A stretch of 64,000 nucleotides of DNA from Apostichopus japonicus (lineage: Eukaryota; Echinodermata; Holothuroidea; Aspidochirotida; Stichopodidae), in NCBI RefSeq assembly GCF_037975245.1, contig NC_092579.1:1238501-1302500 (forward strand). Reading direction: 5' to 3'. How positions within the stretch are numbered: the first letter of the stretch is position 1; each line of letters opens with the position of its first letter. The notes beneath the pieces were generated by a model that was given only the letters and a program-made list of their open reading frames with translations, did not search any database and had not been told where the DNA came from. Made by a program: the position numbers and the translations under genes. Below are positions 3,246 to 27,267 of the stretch, in pieces.

Positions 3246-4057
3246 TAGTTCTCAGCGATAGTGTTGTCTCCTTTCTTGAAAATTTGGTTTTTAGCGGTTT
3301 TAAGAGCATCAGGGTACGTCACAGAAGTGAAAACCCGATTGAAAATGTAACAGGGTATCGAGGCAATGACGCGAGCAATGATGTGAGAAACATGTGTATG
3401 ATGGTAGCATTTTTTACCTTTTAACATCTTCTTTGGCATTCAAGTACCTGGAAACCACCTTTCTATAAGGATATAGTATTGCTCACTAGCTTGTTTAATC
3501 AGTTAATGTGCACTGGTTACAAGATACCGATTGGCTGTTTGTATTAGTATTTATTTGTATGTTAGGGATTATGGATATTTAAAAAAGAGAGACAAAGGCA
3601 AAGTTTGCCCGAACAGTCCAGTGGCGGATCCAGGATTTCGCCGAAGGGGGGCCCAGATGGGAAATGCCTAATCGTCGGCCTGGGGGAGGGGTCTAAGGGG
3701 AGTGGGTGCCCCCTCCCCTTTGGAAAATTTCACAAAATATGGAGGTCCTCGACTCCTCGGTGCAATCTTGTGCTACTTTTCGTAAAAGTTTGGAGTAAAA
3801 TTTATTTCCAATAAATCATGTATTCATGGTTTGCCGGGCATATATTTGCAATTTCGAGCAATGAGCTGGGATTTACGTCTTTGGGGAGTAGGTGGTGATG
3901 CAAACTACTTTTTACCAGGCTACTCCAGGCCATTTCAGCTTGGATGCCCCTTCCAGATGGAGACTATCGATGCAGTCAGAGTGCCCCTCTCACCTTCACT
4001 TTATCAGAATGATGGTGTACTCTTTTTGCAAATGTATTTTTCCAAAAACTACACGCA
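3246..4057. other. non-coding; one MITE end
   Basis: A transposon end (CAGTGGCGGATCCAGG near 3619) followed by G-rich sequence is present without a matching right end. No gene is seen. Confidence 0.5.
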
Positions 4058-5112: not shown

Positions 5113-6301
5113 CAGGGGCGGATGCAGGATTTGTGACAGGGGGGGTGGTCTGACTGGTCCAGCCGCGCCTGAACGTAAGACTATCTAAGCGGAGCGCCAT
5201 GCATCGGTTGGCGCGGAGCGTACAAGAAAATTTTTGGCTTTACAAACCCCCCAGATGGCCGGAAACGGCACTTCCCGAGTATTCTAAGCAGCATGTACCT
5301 AGCCTGAAAATATGGATCTCATGTCTGCAATTTCTCAATTGATGAGAAAAAACAATCTATGAAATATGGTATTACATATCAGATGAGATGAGATGATACA
5401 AAAATCATAATGCCTTTAGCCCCCAATACTCCTCCCGTTCCGTCACCACTGTTTGATGCAGGGCCGGATCCAGGATTCTGGAAGGGTGAGGGGTTTGCTC
5501 ATGAAAAATTCGTTAGCGCATCCTAGCAGCCTACCGCTCTGTAACCTCACCGCCCAAAAAAATTCGAACACCACCTCAATTTTGAAACTTTTCGGTCTGA
5601 AAATTGAGATCGTAAGGCATATTTGGCACGTGTAGCACGCGTGCACACTATTGTTCATTGGACGGAAAAGACACACCTGGATGACTTGTGAGGATAACCG
5701 CTTTTCTGACGTCCTACATATTTAAAATTGGCGTTTAATTTAATTATTTTTTTCTCTATTTTTTTCTCTCTCTTTTTTATTTTTGGCCAAGAGCAGGGGG
5801 GTCCGGACCCCCTGGACCCCCCCTGGATCCGCGCCTGCATATATTCATTTGACTCGAGGCAATATATGAAAACCTGATACCTCGGCTCAGTACAAACGGA
5901 GCCAATCTTTTGATAGATTGTTGCGCTAGGTGGAAGCACTGAACATATTTTCAGCAGATATCGATATCGCGCAGCACAACAAGGTTCGTGGTGTGTGGTC
6001 GCAATTGTCGCATCGACCATTGCCATGCCATGCTGTGTGACCATTCTCATGATTACTACAGATATTGTATTATTCTTATTCTGCCAGATGCAGACGAGAT
6101 AATTGTGTAACTCTATTTCCCAAATTATTGAACAAAAAATATAAGTGAATCGCACTTATTTTTATTTTTTTACAACATTTATTTTACAACATTCCCAGTG
6201 GGGGGGCCAGTGGGAGGCCAGCCTATTTCATGGGGGCCTAGGCCCCCAGGCCCCCCGTAGCTACGCCACTGATCACGCATGGGGCCCTTTCCCTCGAACG
6301 C

Positions 6302-20048: not shown

Positions 20049-21200
20049 TTGCATGACAGCAGCAAATGTTTGTGGCTGCTATTTTGGAAATGGAAAGTCT
20101 ATATGATGATGTGGAGAACTGAATGAATTGTACCTTCAAAAATATATTTGAAGAACAGTAAATCATATTTTAAAGCTATATTAAAAAGAAAATTAATTGT
20201 GGGACATTGCATCGATTTGATTAATTTGAAAACATTTAAGAGACTCTTCATTTTGTTTTGTTTTAATTAAATAATTACCTCTCTGTTTTGAACTTTATAT
20301 ATACATTTATATTTCGGGTGAAGGGAATTTAATATTACAATGATATATTACAAAATTGTAGAAGAAACTGAAGACAAAGAAAATGACCAAATGCACTACC
20401 ATAGCTGATGCAGTGGTGACAGTACAGGTACAAATCCATAGTTGGATCAAAGGAGGGGCTCCCAAAGAGGATCCAGGGGGCCTCAGCCACCTCATTTGAC
20501 AGTTTTGTACAAAAGCGTAGCCCAATATAATTTAAGTCCAAGCAAGGTACATAGTGAAAATACTTAGCACCCATCGAGTGTGTACATTGCTATTTTTTTT
20601 ATTGATCTTTTTTCTTTATGCACCACTATTAAGTATTAATTTCAGTATCTGCCGATTCTTCTCAATACATCTCTCGGGACCCCATGGCCACTTCCCAAAA
20701 TTCTGGAACCTCAGCTGTAACAGTGGGGAACTGTGTCGATAAAATTGCTAAGTACAATTTGACAATCTGATGATGGTTTTCATCAATAGTATTAGATCAA
20801 GTCTTTGTATATGTTACGTTGTACCACTCACATATGGATTGCTCTCTGGGAATCAGGAAAATGCAGGTAAAACAATTTGGGCCTTATGTTTCAACTGCTT
20901 AAAGTTTTGATATTTTTGTATTGATTTCCTTCATAATTATGCATTTCCAACTTTAATATGGCAAAATTATATGACATTATTTTGTTTTCACTTCATAAAT
21001 TAAATGACAAATGTTGTATTTCTACTACAGACATGTTAGAGGTCATATGAGTTTGATTAATACACCTAATAAACAAGTTTAATATCAACTGTTTAGTTCT
21101 TTAATGAATAGTGGTGCCCCACATAGGAAGTCCAGTGAACCTTGCTTCTTTAACCTTAAACCAGTTATGGTTATGGTACTTAAATTTCATCATACCTCCT
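20049..21200. other. P450 3' flank
   Basis: The P450 3'UTR probably begins here. No canonical AATAAA can be singled out in the first 300 bases. No further gene is seen. Confidence 0.4.
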
Positions 21201-21265
21201 ATAGTCAGGTCGATATATGGAAAATACCCCCTCAACCCCCAGAAAATTGCTACAAAAGGTTTTTT

Positions 21266-21676
21266 GAACTCCTGGGAGCAGGAATGGCAGTGACAATTTC
21301 ATGCTCCACTCATTATTCTCTGACACCTACAGAATAGATATCTATGGTATCTGTTGGTATTCATCAAAGAAAATCATTGGATAGGGTTTCAAATGAGCTT
21401 CTGTTGGCTTGCAAGTTGTAGAAGTCAGGTCAAAATACAGTTTAACCCCCCAAAAATTGCTATAAAAGGTTTCTCAACTGATTTTGGTAGGGTTTAGTAT
21501 GCTTTATAACATACTAAAAGTTTACCAAGTAGGACCCCCGGAAAAGTGTTTTTGTTTCAAAATGGCGTCCAAGATGGCCGCCGAAACCTCTTAATGATCA
21601 TAACTATGTAACTATTAACTCAAATTTGATGATCTTGGTGTCTTTCCCTATGTTTTTGGGGGCAAAGAACAAATTA
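21266..21676 (+). repeat. left long inverted arm
   Basis: It pairs with 24815-25212. Landmarks in order: GGAGCAGGAATGGCAGTGAC, GCTTCTGTTGGCTTGCAAGT, GGTTTCTCAACTGATTTTGG, TAGGACCCCCGGAAAAGT, CCTCTTAATGATCATAACTA and TTTGGGGGCAAAGAACA. All recur in reverse complement, with minor changes, on the right. Confidence 0.9.
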
Positions 21677-23245
21677 AAAATGAAAGTGGGCCATTATCTA
21701 ACAGGTTGAGGGGGGAATTTTCCATATATTGACCTGAAGAATGTGTCGAATTGGATCCAGGTAGTCTTTGAGGACCTGCCGAGATATCTTGACTGTGACA
21801 AGAGGATCGATATTTTGTGGGAAGTCTCCCTTGGCTTCAAAGAGGCAACACCGAATTGGCAGAGGATGATGCATATCTTGCATCAGGAGAGCAGCACCCT
21901 GGGCAGTCGTCAGTCAAATTCTTGCATATGATCAATATGTACTCTGGAGACAAATCGTGCATTGTGTCTACAATAGACTTTGTTTGCAACCTTGCCATGA
22001 AGCACAACCTTCCCACCATTGTAACTTTTGACCAGCCCTTGTATTGGAAGGCTGCCGAAATCCTCATTGGTGCACCACAAAGTAGTCACCTAAAAGGCAT
22101 TGTTCTGATGTTGGGGTGTTTCCATACACTTATGAACGTGATGGGGGCCATAGGAACTCTCATGCAAGGGACATACTTGAGACTGTCTATTGAGAAATTT
22201 CAGTTGTGCACATGATTACAGGGAAAGCTGTCCAGAGGGCTTTGCGAGGCCATCTTGTTGACAAGTCCCTACATAGCCAGCTTATAACGGAAATGGCCAG
22301 AGACGATCCCGAGATTCAGACACTGTTGGATCAAACCGAGGAATTGTACTCCTCCCTTCTTAGCGGAGAGACGACGCTAGGAGATGCTGCTTTTTCTGAG
22401 GTTTTGATCCAACTCGAGACAGTAATGGAGAAGAAGAAATCTGAACTTGCTCAGACCTCAAAGACCATCGAGTTGTGGCTGAATTATCAGCGTATGGTTG
22501 GCATGGCAAGAATGTTGATCAAGGCGGATCATACTGGGTCTTGGATGATGCATTTGCAGGCAGTGTCCAATTGCCTAACTGTCTTTTTTGCAGCTGGGCG
22601 CTTCAATTACCTGCGATCTGCTCATTACTACCTGCAGCAAATGAGGAACCTTGTGGAAAAGCACCCAGACGTTTATCGAAAGTTCCTTGATGGTTTTTCA
22701 CGTTGTTCATAGGAGCAATCAGTGCTGGGCAGGGCTTAGTAGTGATCTTGTCATTGAACAAACGTTGATGAGGTCTCTAAAGAGCACTGGTGGTCTAACT
22801 CGCGGCAGTGGGATGACCGAGGACATACGAAACCTTTGGACCTTATCTGCACCTGTAACATCCGAGTACAACATCAGGATGCAGGATTTCACAAACCTAA
22901 CCTATACTACAAGTCCGCAACACAAAGGCTCAACTGAGGCGCGCATCAAAAGAGATGCATCTGATTTCGAGAAAATTCAGATAAAGCTTGCAGCCTGCTC
23001 ACCCTTCACATCTGATCCTACTCTGAGAAACATTGTCAACGGGATAGTGGCTGGGCCAAATGAGATTGTACGTGACTTTGAATCGGTTGGGAACAAGATC
23101 ATTGAAGATATCATCGGAAATTCTGCATTTACTTAAAAATTCTTCTTCAAATACTTACAAATTCAAGCGGAAAGACAGAGCCCAAGCACTTGGGAATATC
23201 TCTGCTGTGAAGATTGCTCCTGATCGTACCATTGATCTTGCCCTT

Positions 23246-23523
23246 CTGTCAAGGGCGGCGGAACCGGGGGCACAGGGGGCACGTGCCCCCCCCCCCACTT
23301 TTCCTCAGGTTAAAAATGTGCCCTTTTTCTACATAAAAATTGAGGTGTCTCAAGTTAGCAAGAGGCCTGGGATTCCAGGGAACCAGAATGGGAAGGGCCG
23401 TTTCCGGCCATCTGAGGGGTTTGTAAAACCAAAAATTTTCTTGTAAGCTCCGCGCCAACCGATGGTGGCGCTCCGCTCAGATAGTCGTGCATACAACTTT
23501 GCTAATCCTGGCTATGCCCCTGA
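23246..23523 (-). mobile_element. MITE inserted in the relic ORF
   Basis: G-rich (GGGCGGCGGAACCGGGGGCA) and C-rich ends enclose the shared core in reverse (23372-23489, CGCGCCAACCGATGGTGGCG). The right end is ATCCTGGCTATGCCCCTGA. It splits the relic protein after the segment read as TIDLALLS. No clear target duplication. Confidence 0.65.
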
Positions 23524-23756
23524 CTTTTAATGAACTTCTGTGGGTCAAACTCAAAGCAATTTCGAATGGAAAAAAAAAATTGTTAAGATATTATCAAGAA
23601 ATGAACTATAATTAGGAAGATTCTTACATTAGCAACTAGCATGATTTCACCTCATTTTGTCTCAAAAGAAAACTTGTTCCATGTTTCCCAATTTGCACAT
23701 TGGATATTGCAGTGCTAGTATGCATATTTTCCTTGAGGAGGGGGGGGGGGGCGTTG

Positions 23757-23967
23757 ATGGAGCGATTTAAATCGATGATAAGTAAAATAAATCGGTGATA
23801 TGTAGAATGAAACTGGTATATGTCGATTTAAATCGATGATATGTAGAATGAAACTGGTATATGTCGATTTAAATCGGTAGAAGTCGATTTCAGCTGCTGG
23901 AAACTGGTATAAGTCGAAGGAAACTGGTATATGTCGATTTAAATCGGTATAAGTCGATCTCCCATGA
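23757..23967. repeat. GATTTAAATCGATG minisatellite
   Basis: Units of about 42 bp combine the palindrome GATTTAAATC with GAAACTGGTATATGTC. Four to five imperfect units interrupt the relic ORF. Confidence 0.8.
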
Positions 23968-24814
23968 TTTGAGACTGATGGCCCGCCATAGAGATCATCT
24001 ATTTCCTTCCTGACGCAAACAAGCAGTCAAAAGAACACAGAGTGTATAACATTAATCTGTTGAAAAAAATTTTAGGAGACGATGTGTGCAATCAGTTGCT
24101 CTTTGTGCATGCCTACTCAGGATGTGATTCTACTTCAAGGATTTTCGGCAACGGAAAAAGTCAGCCTTCCAAAAATTAGTGACATCTGATCCTGTCATGA
24201 AGTCCTGTGCTAGTGCATGCATTCTTCAAAACAAATCTCAATAGCACATATCAGATCTTGGCGAAGACCTGATGGTTGATCTCTTTGGTGACAAGTCTAC
24301 CGACACGCTATCATCACTGCGCCATATCATTTTCACCAAAAAAGAACGGCTTCCCCCAGGATCACCTGCAACATGATTCCATAGCCAACGTGTGTACTTT
24401 CAAAGTATGGTATGGAAGGGGATGGCAAATGAAATGAACCCAACTGAATGGGGATGGAAACAGGAAAATGATCAGTTAATTCCAATTATGACCCAAAACA
24501 ATGCTACGCCTGACAAACTCTTGAAAATAATCCATTGCAACCGTTCGAGGGGACGCAAATTCTCTCGATGCAGCTGCAGACGCTATGGACTCCCCTGCAC
24601 TGATGCATGTGGCCCTTGCCAAACTGAAAACTGTGACAATCCTAACAACACTCAGGAGGTCGATACTGAGGAGGAGGAGGATGACACTCAAAACTGAACG
24701 CTCTGAAACTTATTGTATGGAAAAAGGTGTTTGTGCATTAGATGATGGTGGGCAGCTGAAGGTCATGAGTTCAATTTCATAATGATTTAACAGTTCAGTG
24801 ATATCCAAAGTTGT

Positions 24815-25212
24815 CTTAATGTGTTCTTTGCCCCCAAAAACATAGGGATAGACACCAAGATCATCAAATTTGAGATGATATTACATAGTTATGATCATTA
24901 AGAGGTTCCGGCGGCTATCTTGAAAAAAACTTTTCCGGGGGTCCTACTTTGGTAAACATTTAGTATGTTATAAAGTACACTAAACCCTACCAGAATCAGT
25001 TGAGAAACCTTTTGTAGCATTTTTTTTTGGGGGGGGGGGGGTGGGTAAACTGTATTTGACCTGACTACTACAACTTGCAAGCCAACAGAAGCTCATTTGA
25101 AACCCCATCCAATGATTTTCTCTGATGAATACCAACAGATACCATAGTAGGTGTTCAGAGAATAATGAGTGGAGCATGTAATTGTCACTGCTATTCCTGC
25201 TCCCTGGAGTTC
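24815..25212 (-). repeat. right long inverted arm
   Basis: This is the reverse complement of the left arm. It starts at TTCTTTGCCCCCAAAAACAT and ends at TGCTCCCTGGAGTTC. It holds a longer G-run (25029-25044) where the left arm has six C. Confidence 0.9.
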
Positions 25213-25479: not shown

Positions 25480-25995
25480 CCCAGTAAACATTTTGACGTC
25501 GGATCGACGTCGGGTTTAGGTCCAGATGGTCGGTTTAACGTCGGTGTCCAACATAAGTACGGTAGTAGTTCAGACGTCGGATTGACGTCACAAATTTAAC
25601 CTTCCACTTTTAGACGTCCTAAGGACTGCGGATGGACGTTTGTTAATATCATAATTATATAAAGGTAGTCTTTAGGACGTCGGATGACAGCCCTTTAATA
25701 TAAGTCGCGTTTCAATGGTCCATCCGACGCCGAAATAACCTTTTATAATGAACCTATAATAAAAGGTTCGTTGGATCGAAGTCGGATGAACTACGGACAG
25801 GCGACGTCGGACTGAGAACGTCCCTCCGACGCTCAAACGACCAGTCAGAATAGACTAGTCATAAACGGTTAGTTGGATCGACGTCCGCTCAACTACGGAC
25901 AGGCGACGTCGCACTGAGAACGTCCCCCGACGCTCAAACGACCAGTCAGAATAGAATAATCATAAGCGGTTAGTTGGATCGACGTCGGATGAACC
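25480..25995. repeat. GACGTC-rich repeat cluster
   Basis: Words such as GACGTCGGATCGACGTCGG recur. Two tandem units of roughly 110 bp, each with CGACGCTCAAACGACCAGTC, start near 25770 and 25870. The rest is a more diverged copy of the same motif. No coding signal. Confidence 0.75.
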
Positions 25996-27267
25996 ACGGA
26001 CCCCCTCCTCCACCCCTCATACTTGGTTAACTTTAACACTGCAATCCTTGGTGTGACTTTATCTATTTCTGGTTTGCTGCCATCTCTATTTTATCTATTT
26101 TACCTATTTTTCCGCACTGTCTTACCAAATCTAAGAAGGAACGTCCAAGTACGATCAACTATTGGTAAGTCCAAGACGTAATTGATTTCGAAGTTATCCC
26201 AAATATCAAAAGAGTACCTTCTCAAGAACAAATTAATGAAATTAATTACAAGAAATTAATATTTCATCATCAAAACTTAACAGTTGTCGAAGAGATTAGT
26301 AATGTGGAAATACCACCAATCAATTACTGCAGGTTGAAACTAATATCAATTTAATCTATGATTAAAAGAAGAATTTGCAAAATGGTAACGGTAATTTGAC
26401 AAAACAATTTGTTCCACAAAAAAAGAAAAAAAGAAAGAATATCAGCATGATTGAGGTTTATTTATTTTATTTATGTGGCATTAAATAAGTTTGATACTTG
26501 TTAGGTTTAGCGATATAGATATGCTGTGAAATGATAGCAAACAGAGGAACAGACTCCTATGGATTTTTGTTGACTCTGTTTTTTGTTCGTCAAAAGGCAA
26601 TTAATAACAGCATGAAAACTGAAAGTCCAATTAAATGGGACATTCAGCCTTTTGTTGCAATGGGAACTCTTTATCACCTACTTAAACCAGATTTTGGCTT
26701 TTAAGTGCTATGCTGTACCTCTTACCTTTACTCATGTAAAAGCTCTTCAGCGCACAAACAAAACATAGTTTTGTGTTCTCTATAATAGGTTTTTAGAAAC
26801 AGGTTAATTTAAATTAGAGTTATTATCCTGGACTGGATTTATTGTCTTTATATGTAATTTCACTTTGACTGGATTTGATATTGTCTAGTGATATGAATTT
26901 CTGTCATATAAAATGCCTATTTGAATTAGACACACACAGCTACAATGTACTTATGATACTTGCTTTCCTCTGTTGTCATTGAACAGCTACAGTTTGAGAT
27001 ATGCTTCATAAAGCTCACAACAGCTGTGTGTGTTTCATACTTTAGTCTGGTTTCATGAATTATTCAGCATTCCACTCTTGTTGCAATGAGGTCATGTTTT
27101 TACCAATCTTGACATCATTATGAAACCAAATATGAAATTATTAGGATAAGTGAATGCAATCCATAGTGTTGGATTGATTTAAATCATGTTAACCTTTTGT
27201 TTCTTTCAATTAATTATTTCTCCATATTTTCATCCCTCTGCTTTCCTCCTCCCCTTCCCCATTTTAG
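25996..27267. other. non-coding; possible intron
   Basis: No recognised gene. A good donor (ATTG/GTAAGT at 26161) with an upstream AG could end a small exon. It would be the only candidate partner seen for the terminal exon at 27268, and it is speculative. Confidence 0.3.

Follow-up and report, generated by a model that had tools for sequence, protein, structure and literature searches.

A decayed copy of a probable Academ-type transposon with a FEN1/XPG-like nuclease region in Apostichopus japonicus

The locus described here lies in a 64,000-nucleotide stretch of the Apostichopus japonicus genome (contig NC_092579.1, positions 1,238,501 to 1,302,500; hereafter the window). It raises the question whether two inverted arms of roughly 400 bp and the decayed protein between them form a DNA transposon, where the ends of such an element lie, and whether its nuclease-like protein is cargo or engine.

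Boundaries of the window element and origin of its arms

Alignment of the two arms (window positions 21266-21677 and 24816-25212) gave 363 identities in 427 columns (85%, with 45 gap columns counted), corresponding to 95% (363/382) when the aligned base pairs alone were considered. The local score of the pair was 555 compared with 31 at most in 200 base shuffles, so the arms are indeed inverted copies of each other, as the original prediction had proposed. Its tentative suggestion that they represent the true ends of the family was rejected, since a second copy on C9 and the target site duplications (TSDs) place the ends elsewhere, at 21202 and 25067. The element has the terminus TAGTCAGG at 21202-21209 and the terminus CCTGACTA at 25060-25067, with CTA on either side as a 3-bp TSD (21199-21201 and 25068-25070). 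The window transposon spans 21202-25067 (plus strand, 3866 bp) and is a decayed, non-autonomous copy.

The C9 copy of the window family (family W) carries the ends TAGTCAGG...CCTGACTA, the TSD ACA, and arms of approximately 235 bp (3261-3494 and 5780-6015 of locus L010) around the same protein. Its right flank diverges from that of the window at the element boundary, and its left arm is devoid of the flank copy described below; it is an insertion independent of the window's, in other DNA. A further copy on C12 retains the left end with the beginning of the coding remnant, beyond which it is interrupted.

Relative to these boundaries, the left arm as named earlier begins 64 bases inside the element, and the right arm runs 145 bases past the element end. 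The true left (5') tip at 21202-21262 (plus strand) is similar to the left ends of the C9 and C12 copies and was also hit by the terminal pattern. It is followed by the outer left arm (21266-21421, minus strand), which duplicates the right flank at 25068-25212 (plus strand) in inverted orientation according to the arm and flank alignments, and is a scar, not a transposon end. Past this flank copy, the left terminus contains a duplicate of the right tip, with AAGTCAGG in the place of TAGTCAGG. The outer arm sequence originates from flanking DNA, copied inverted into the left terminus after insertion, and the inner part of approximately 250 bp represents the true terminal repeats. As deduced from the arm alignment and the C9 arms, the inner left arm (21422-21677, plus strand) comprises the inverted right-tip copy and then the terminal inverted repeat proper, with the right terminal inverted repeat at 24816-25067 (minus strand).

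In a search of the own genome, the left arm gave 33 matches, four of which were full length (the C19 pair) and three of which were limited to the inner part (C9 twice, and C12). The remaining 26 were confined to the first 159 bases, indicating that the flank-derived part also resembles sequence scattered elsewhere. A copy 58 kb away (C19:1201487) carries the same scar and has 97-98% flank identity with the window on both sides; it is therefore a segmental duplicate. The two duplicates (C19:1201487-1206399 and window 21202-25067) each contain a different nested insertion. Inside the element, the left tip recurs in inverted orientation at 21711-21740 (minus strand; inverted pair I8, pattern match at C19:1260222), and this inverted tip is also present in the C9 copy and in the C19 duplicate. 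It may represent a subterminal binding repeat or mark one end of a short derivative that was inserted. A tandem array with a period of 101 bp (2.4 copies, 25759-26001) is located approximately 0.7 kb downstream of the element.

Arms and protein could also be taken as an inverted duplication or a host palindrome without any mobile element, a reading with some footing in that part of the arms truly is an inverted duplication of the flank, and in the C19 pair being a segmental duplication. It is extremely unlikely in view of the independent C9 insertion with a TSD of its own, and of the TSDs in all 17 elements read.

Related families with defined termini and 3-bp target site duplications

Ends were examined for five families of the own genome, the window family W and the four relatives A, B, C and E, all of which carry the protein between TAG...CTA termini. 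All 17 elements for which both ends were read had an exact 3-bp TSD (seven of family A, two of B, one of C, five of E and two of W). This count omits the C12 copy of W, of which only the left end is present, the segmental duplicate C19:1201487 with the same CTA, the C13 copy of family E, the right end of which lies outside the stretch read, and two left ends of family A (C14 and C16) for which a search with up to two mismatches gave no right end. The terminal inverted repeats comprise 13 bp in family A, approximately 250 bp in W and approximately 290 bp in B.

Family A is represented on C8, C18 and C19 by one open reading frame (ORF) of 1549 amino acids per copy (n = 3, 1548 of 1549 columns identical), and four further copies were located by their terminal patterns. 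The element of approximately 8.4 kb has the ends TAGAC...GTCTA, and 11 of the 13 bases of its terminal repeat are alike. In the seven copies with both ends, the TSDs were GGA, ACA, GTA, GTA, ATT, ATA and AGT. The C8 copy has inserted into one of the 5S rRNA genes in a tandem array (L054 546-645, Rfam matches), and its empty site is provided by neighbouring intact 5S genes, in which the uninterrupted target occurs twice (L057 1777-1895 and 2613-2731). The 1549-amino-acid ORF is located at L054:1770-6419 on the minus strand. Upstream in an intact family A element, an ORF of 121 amino acids was observed (L057 268-633, minus strand), which may be the first exon of the transposon gene. In addition, three shorter family A elements of approximately 3.4-3.5 kb have the same ends.

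Family B (C15 and C12) has the TSDs TAT and TAA. The family C element on C17 comprises 5459 bp with the TSD TAG and with ends that are alike; family E (C8, C10, C19, C20 and C22) has the TSDs TGA, TTA, TAC, ATG and CTG, and its ends are alike as well. Copies of the protein without such arms had been named in advance as an observation that would speak against a transposon, and they do occur among the relatives, as family A has the 13-bp repeat only. These armless relatives do not undo the transposon reading, because their families have termini and TSDs of their own.

The terminal pattern TAGTCAGGTCRATATATGG, with two mismatches at most, gave 24 hits in the genome. Fourteen of them, including three internal inverted tip copies, were no more than 6 kb from a protein match; the sequence this close to a protein match amounts to about 0.14% of the genome, so that termini and protein are associated. 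A control with the reversed TAGTCAGGTCRATATATGG pattern gave 19 hits, and many of the 10 hits distant from the protein are therefore probably due to chance. Two of these 10 (on C12 and C22) were ends of real copies.

The protein could be mere cargo, mobilised by a different transposase through the same termini, as might be argued from the window copy, which is not autonomous, and from the three shorter family A elements with the same ends. On the other hand, the 1549-amino-acid frame is the sole ATG-initiated ORF of at least 150 amino acids in the 8-kb family A loci, the other 1035 bp of the C8 element carry ORFs of 121 and 94 amino acids, and the open frames of the family C protein cover approximately 4.4 of 5.46 kb. 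The TAG...CTA ends are moreover common to five families with the protein. A cargo role is thus very unlikely. The idea of a captured viral gene was rejected and retains hardly any probability: four scans of viral contigs with family members, with patterns that reach mainly close relatives, gave no relative, and TSDs and termini are transposon-like.

The protein and its FEN1/XPG-like nuclease region

In agreement with the original prediction, one decayed protein was found between the arms of the window element, in pieces in several frames with stops. By translation against the family alignment, the first coding remnant (21799-22215, plus strand) contains the FDQPLYWKA motif with the second conserved D. 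The adjoining remnant past this residue (22194-22712, plus strand) gave at least 57 matches in the own genome, the best of which outside the C19 pair had 48% identity over query residues 4-169. The third remnant (22645-23136, plus strand), again identified by translation against the family alignment, contains the VIEQTLMRSLKSTGGLTRG motif with the conserved E. At 23255-23990 (limits approximate, set by eye), foreign sequence stands in place of the nuclease-region coding sequence of the C9 copy; short tandem repeats of 20-61 bp were observed inside it at 23763-23957. An open frame at 23979-24179 (plus strand) holds a remnant of the C-terminal part of the nuclease with HAYSGCDSTSRIFGNGK, which matches the G(S/T)DY region of FEN1; it gave at least 48 matches in the own genome. 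Among the matches listed, these and those of the 22194-22712 piece fall at about 77 places. Translation and DNA alignment with the C9 copy identified a remnant between nuclease and Cys-rich tail at 24245-24376 (plus strand), and translation a remnant of the Cys-rich C-terminal tail itself at 24377-24697 (plus strand), for which an intact relative gave a weak CXC (TCR) match (E = 0.19). In the window element, which has decayed and is truncated, the N-terminal half, the first conserved D and the greater part of the nuclease are missing.

The order in the protein of intact relatives is a Cys/His-containing N-terminus, a transposase-like core, a FEN1/XPG-like nuclease region and a Cys-rich tail. 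In the rows of the family alignment that cover them, the motifs DNxD (5/5), (F/V)DQ (5/5) and IEQ (6/6) were conserved; judged from the alignment, they are candidates for a D/D/E transposase core. A Pfam scan with eight translations of relatives matched no transposase (DDE) model and no helicase. Sub-threshold matches to DUF6589 (E = 0.048-0.082) fell in the core region of three of the eight translations (L054, L033 and L016), and DUF6589 may be a related transposase core.

Beyond the core, the covering rows have VLDGG or (I/V)DG, VFDGY or VTDxY, an AD pair, DTDLL or DTDV, and HxxxGCDxTSxxxGxGK, with GCD in seven of seven and DTD in eight of eight rows of the nuclease alignment covering them. 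FEN1/XPG nucleases likewise have acidic active-site motifs in the order VFDG, an (E/D)A(E/D) region, DxD, and GCD/GTD with G.GK. An hhalign comparison of eight family members with four FEN1 sequences gave an E-value of 7.5e-5 at a probability of 62% over 185 columns, with the motifs in FEN1 order. With the full-length family profile, the E-value was 8e-4 (probability 25%). A gap-free profile, consisting of six of the eight rows and 199 columns without gaps, scored 29.8 against FEN1 (E = 0.0016, probability 16%); scores reached 21.4 at most in 300 shuffles, none of which was as high (0/300). Alignment blocks covering the whole nuclease scored 37.2-37.3, compared with 25.7 at most for other blocks and 15.6 for the reversed profile. 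A first shuffle control, in which gap columns were kept, scored up to 133.8 versus 40.2 for the real alignment and was set aside; in our opinion, it outscored the real alignment because shuffling scatters the gap columns.

Direct identification of the protein with Pfam, NCBIfam and PDB gave sub-threshold matches or none, and the profile of the family found no chain in PDB. The Pfam XPG_I model had six matches at four places of the own genome, one of which, on C3, is FEN1, and none of which was where the protein family matched. At the level of profile similarity, the family protein thus appears to hold a FEN1/XPG-like nuclease region, and the HAYSGCDSTSRIFGNGK motif, the resemblance of which to FEN1/XPG-like nucleases had been pointed out from the window alone, sits within this region. 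Unlike FEN1/XPG repair nucleases, this region is fused to a transposase-like core and a Cys-rich tail and is missed by Pfam XPG_I in this genome.

The original prediction had left open whether these genes are cargo or engine of a DNA transposon. They belong to a transposon, and the protein family very probably serves as its engine. For the catalytic part there is a second candidate besides the nuclease, namely a distinct region ahead of it in the protein, in which D, D and E are conserved.

Relation to Academ elements and inverted duplication of ends

CACTA/EnSpm, Harbinger and Zator transposons generate 3-bp TSDs. They are unlike the family studied here, the termini of which are TAG...CTA (not CACTA) and which gave no Pfam transposase match. 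The nuclease of AcademX is of the XPG type. The IS481EU paper (PMC10045372) assigns 3- or 4-bp TSDs to AcademX and 9- or 10-bp TSDs to AcademH, relates this difference to the encoded nuclease and helicase, respectively, and places both in one superfamily. With its 3-bp TSD and nuclease-like region, the family differs from AcademH as characterised there. It resembles AcademX in the nuclease, assigned by profile similarity, in the 3-bp TSD, and in its terminal inverted repeats, which are general for DDD/E DNA transposons; its conserved D, D and E residues are candidates for a DDD/E core such as that of AcademX. A bivalve survey (PMC10294476) lists 100 curated Academ elements and gives a mean Academ length of 5565 bp; the C17 element is near this value, and family A lies above it. 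The window copy is unlike AcademX in its flank-copy scar and in the missing N-terminal half and most of the nuclease.

The locus is likely, in our view, to derive from a cut-and-paste Academ-type transposon with nuclease (AcademX-like), of which it represents a decayed and non-autonomous copy. Membership of AcademX is proposed from architecture and TSD, the family having been set beside AcademX by published description, not by sequence. A superfamily distinct from Academ, with an independently acquired XPG/FEN-like nuclease, would accommodate a comparison made by description, the Pfam results for transposase models and DUF6589, and the length of family A relative to the curated bivalve elements (PMC10294476). 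It is unlikely, as the combination of nuclease and 3-bp TSD agrees with AcademX as outlined in PMC10045372, and the C17 element is at the Academ mean length. The suggestion of an undescribed-looking transposon with an atypical nuclease fold was not supported, since that paper already describes AcademX with a nuclease and TSDs of 3-4 bp. The combination of nuclease and transposase-like part has already been published as AcademX, and the window locus looks like an ordinary member.

In the transposition cycle that we propose, the protein would recognise the TAG...CTA termini, excise the element and insert it with a 3-bp stagger. The D/D/E core may catalyse cleavage and strand transfer, and the nuclease may act on the element ends in the course of excision or repair, trimming or cutting strands there. 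The anatomy of the scar suggests that a break occurred inside the left terminus after insertion and was repaired from the inverted right terminus by outward copying; the left end would in this way have gained the right tip, the TSD and approximately 145 bp of flanking DNA, after which the copied stretch rejoined the retained left tip. Later, the locus was duplicated within C19, and it decayed.

Foldback-like derivatives of family E were found at L080 197-3441 (C10) and L081 (C8), with the same ends on C13, C19, C20 and C22. The arms of the two copies examined, 1085 and 1107 nt around a loop, were 100% identical after rounding, three mismatches being visible in those of L080. The left tip is retained, and the left arm behind it repeats the 3' end, with the Cys-rich coding region, in inverted orientation; in L080 a 307-amino-acid open frame with the nuclease region spans loop and arm edge. 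In the window as in family E, the junction between left tip and inverted copy lies near one and the same subterminal stretch, and we infer that family E is a related outcome of scar-type repair that became mobile. It is conceivable, if rather improbable, that the FEN-like nuclease helps to make these inverted end-duplications, a broken terminus being repaired from the opposite inverted one with a crossover at AA..TTGC.ACAAAA.GTTT (window and family E), which would yield both flank capture and mobile foldbacks with 1.1-kb arms. If true, the superfamily would, through its own chemistry, incidentally produce palindromic arms and spread them.

We know of no experimental test of the role of a FEN/XPG-like nuclease in cut-and-paste transposition, and the intact, near-identical copies with defined ends in this genome allow this role to be asked about. 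By termini and TSDs, a many-copy family earlier known as uncharacterised is placed among DNA transposons, and such genes should therefore be masked and not annotated as host genes.
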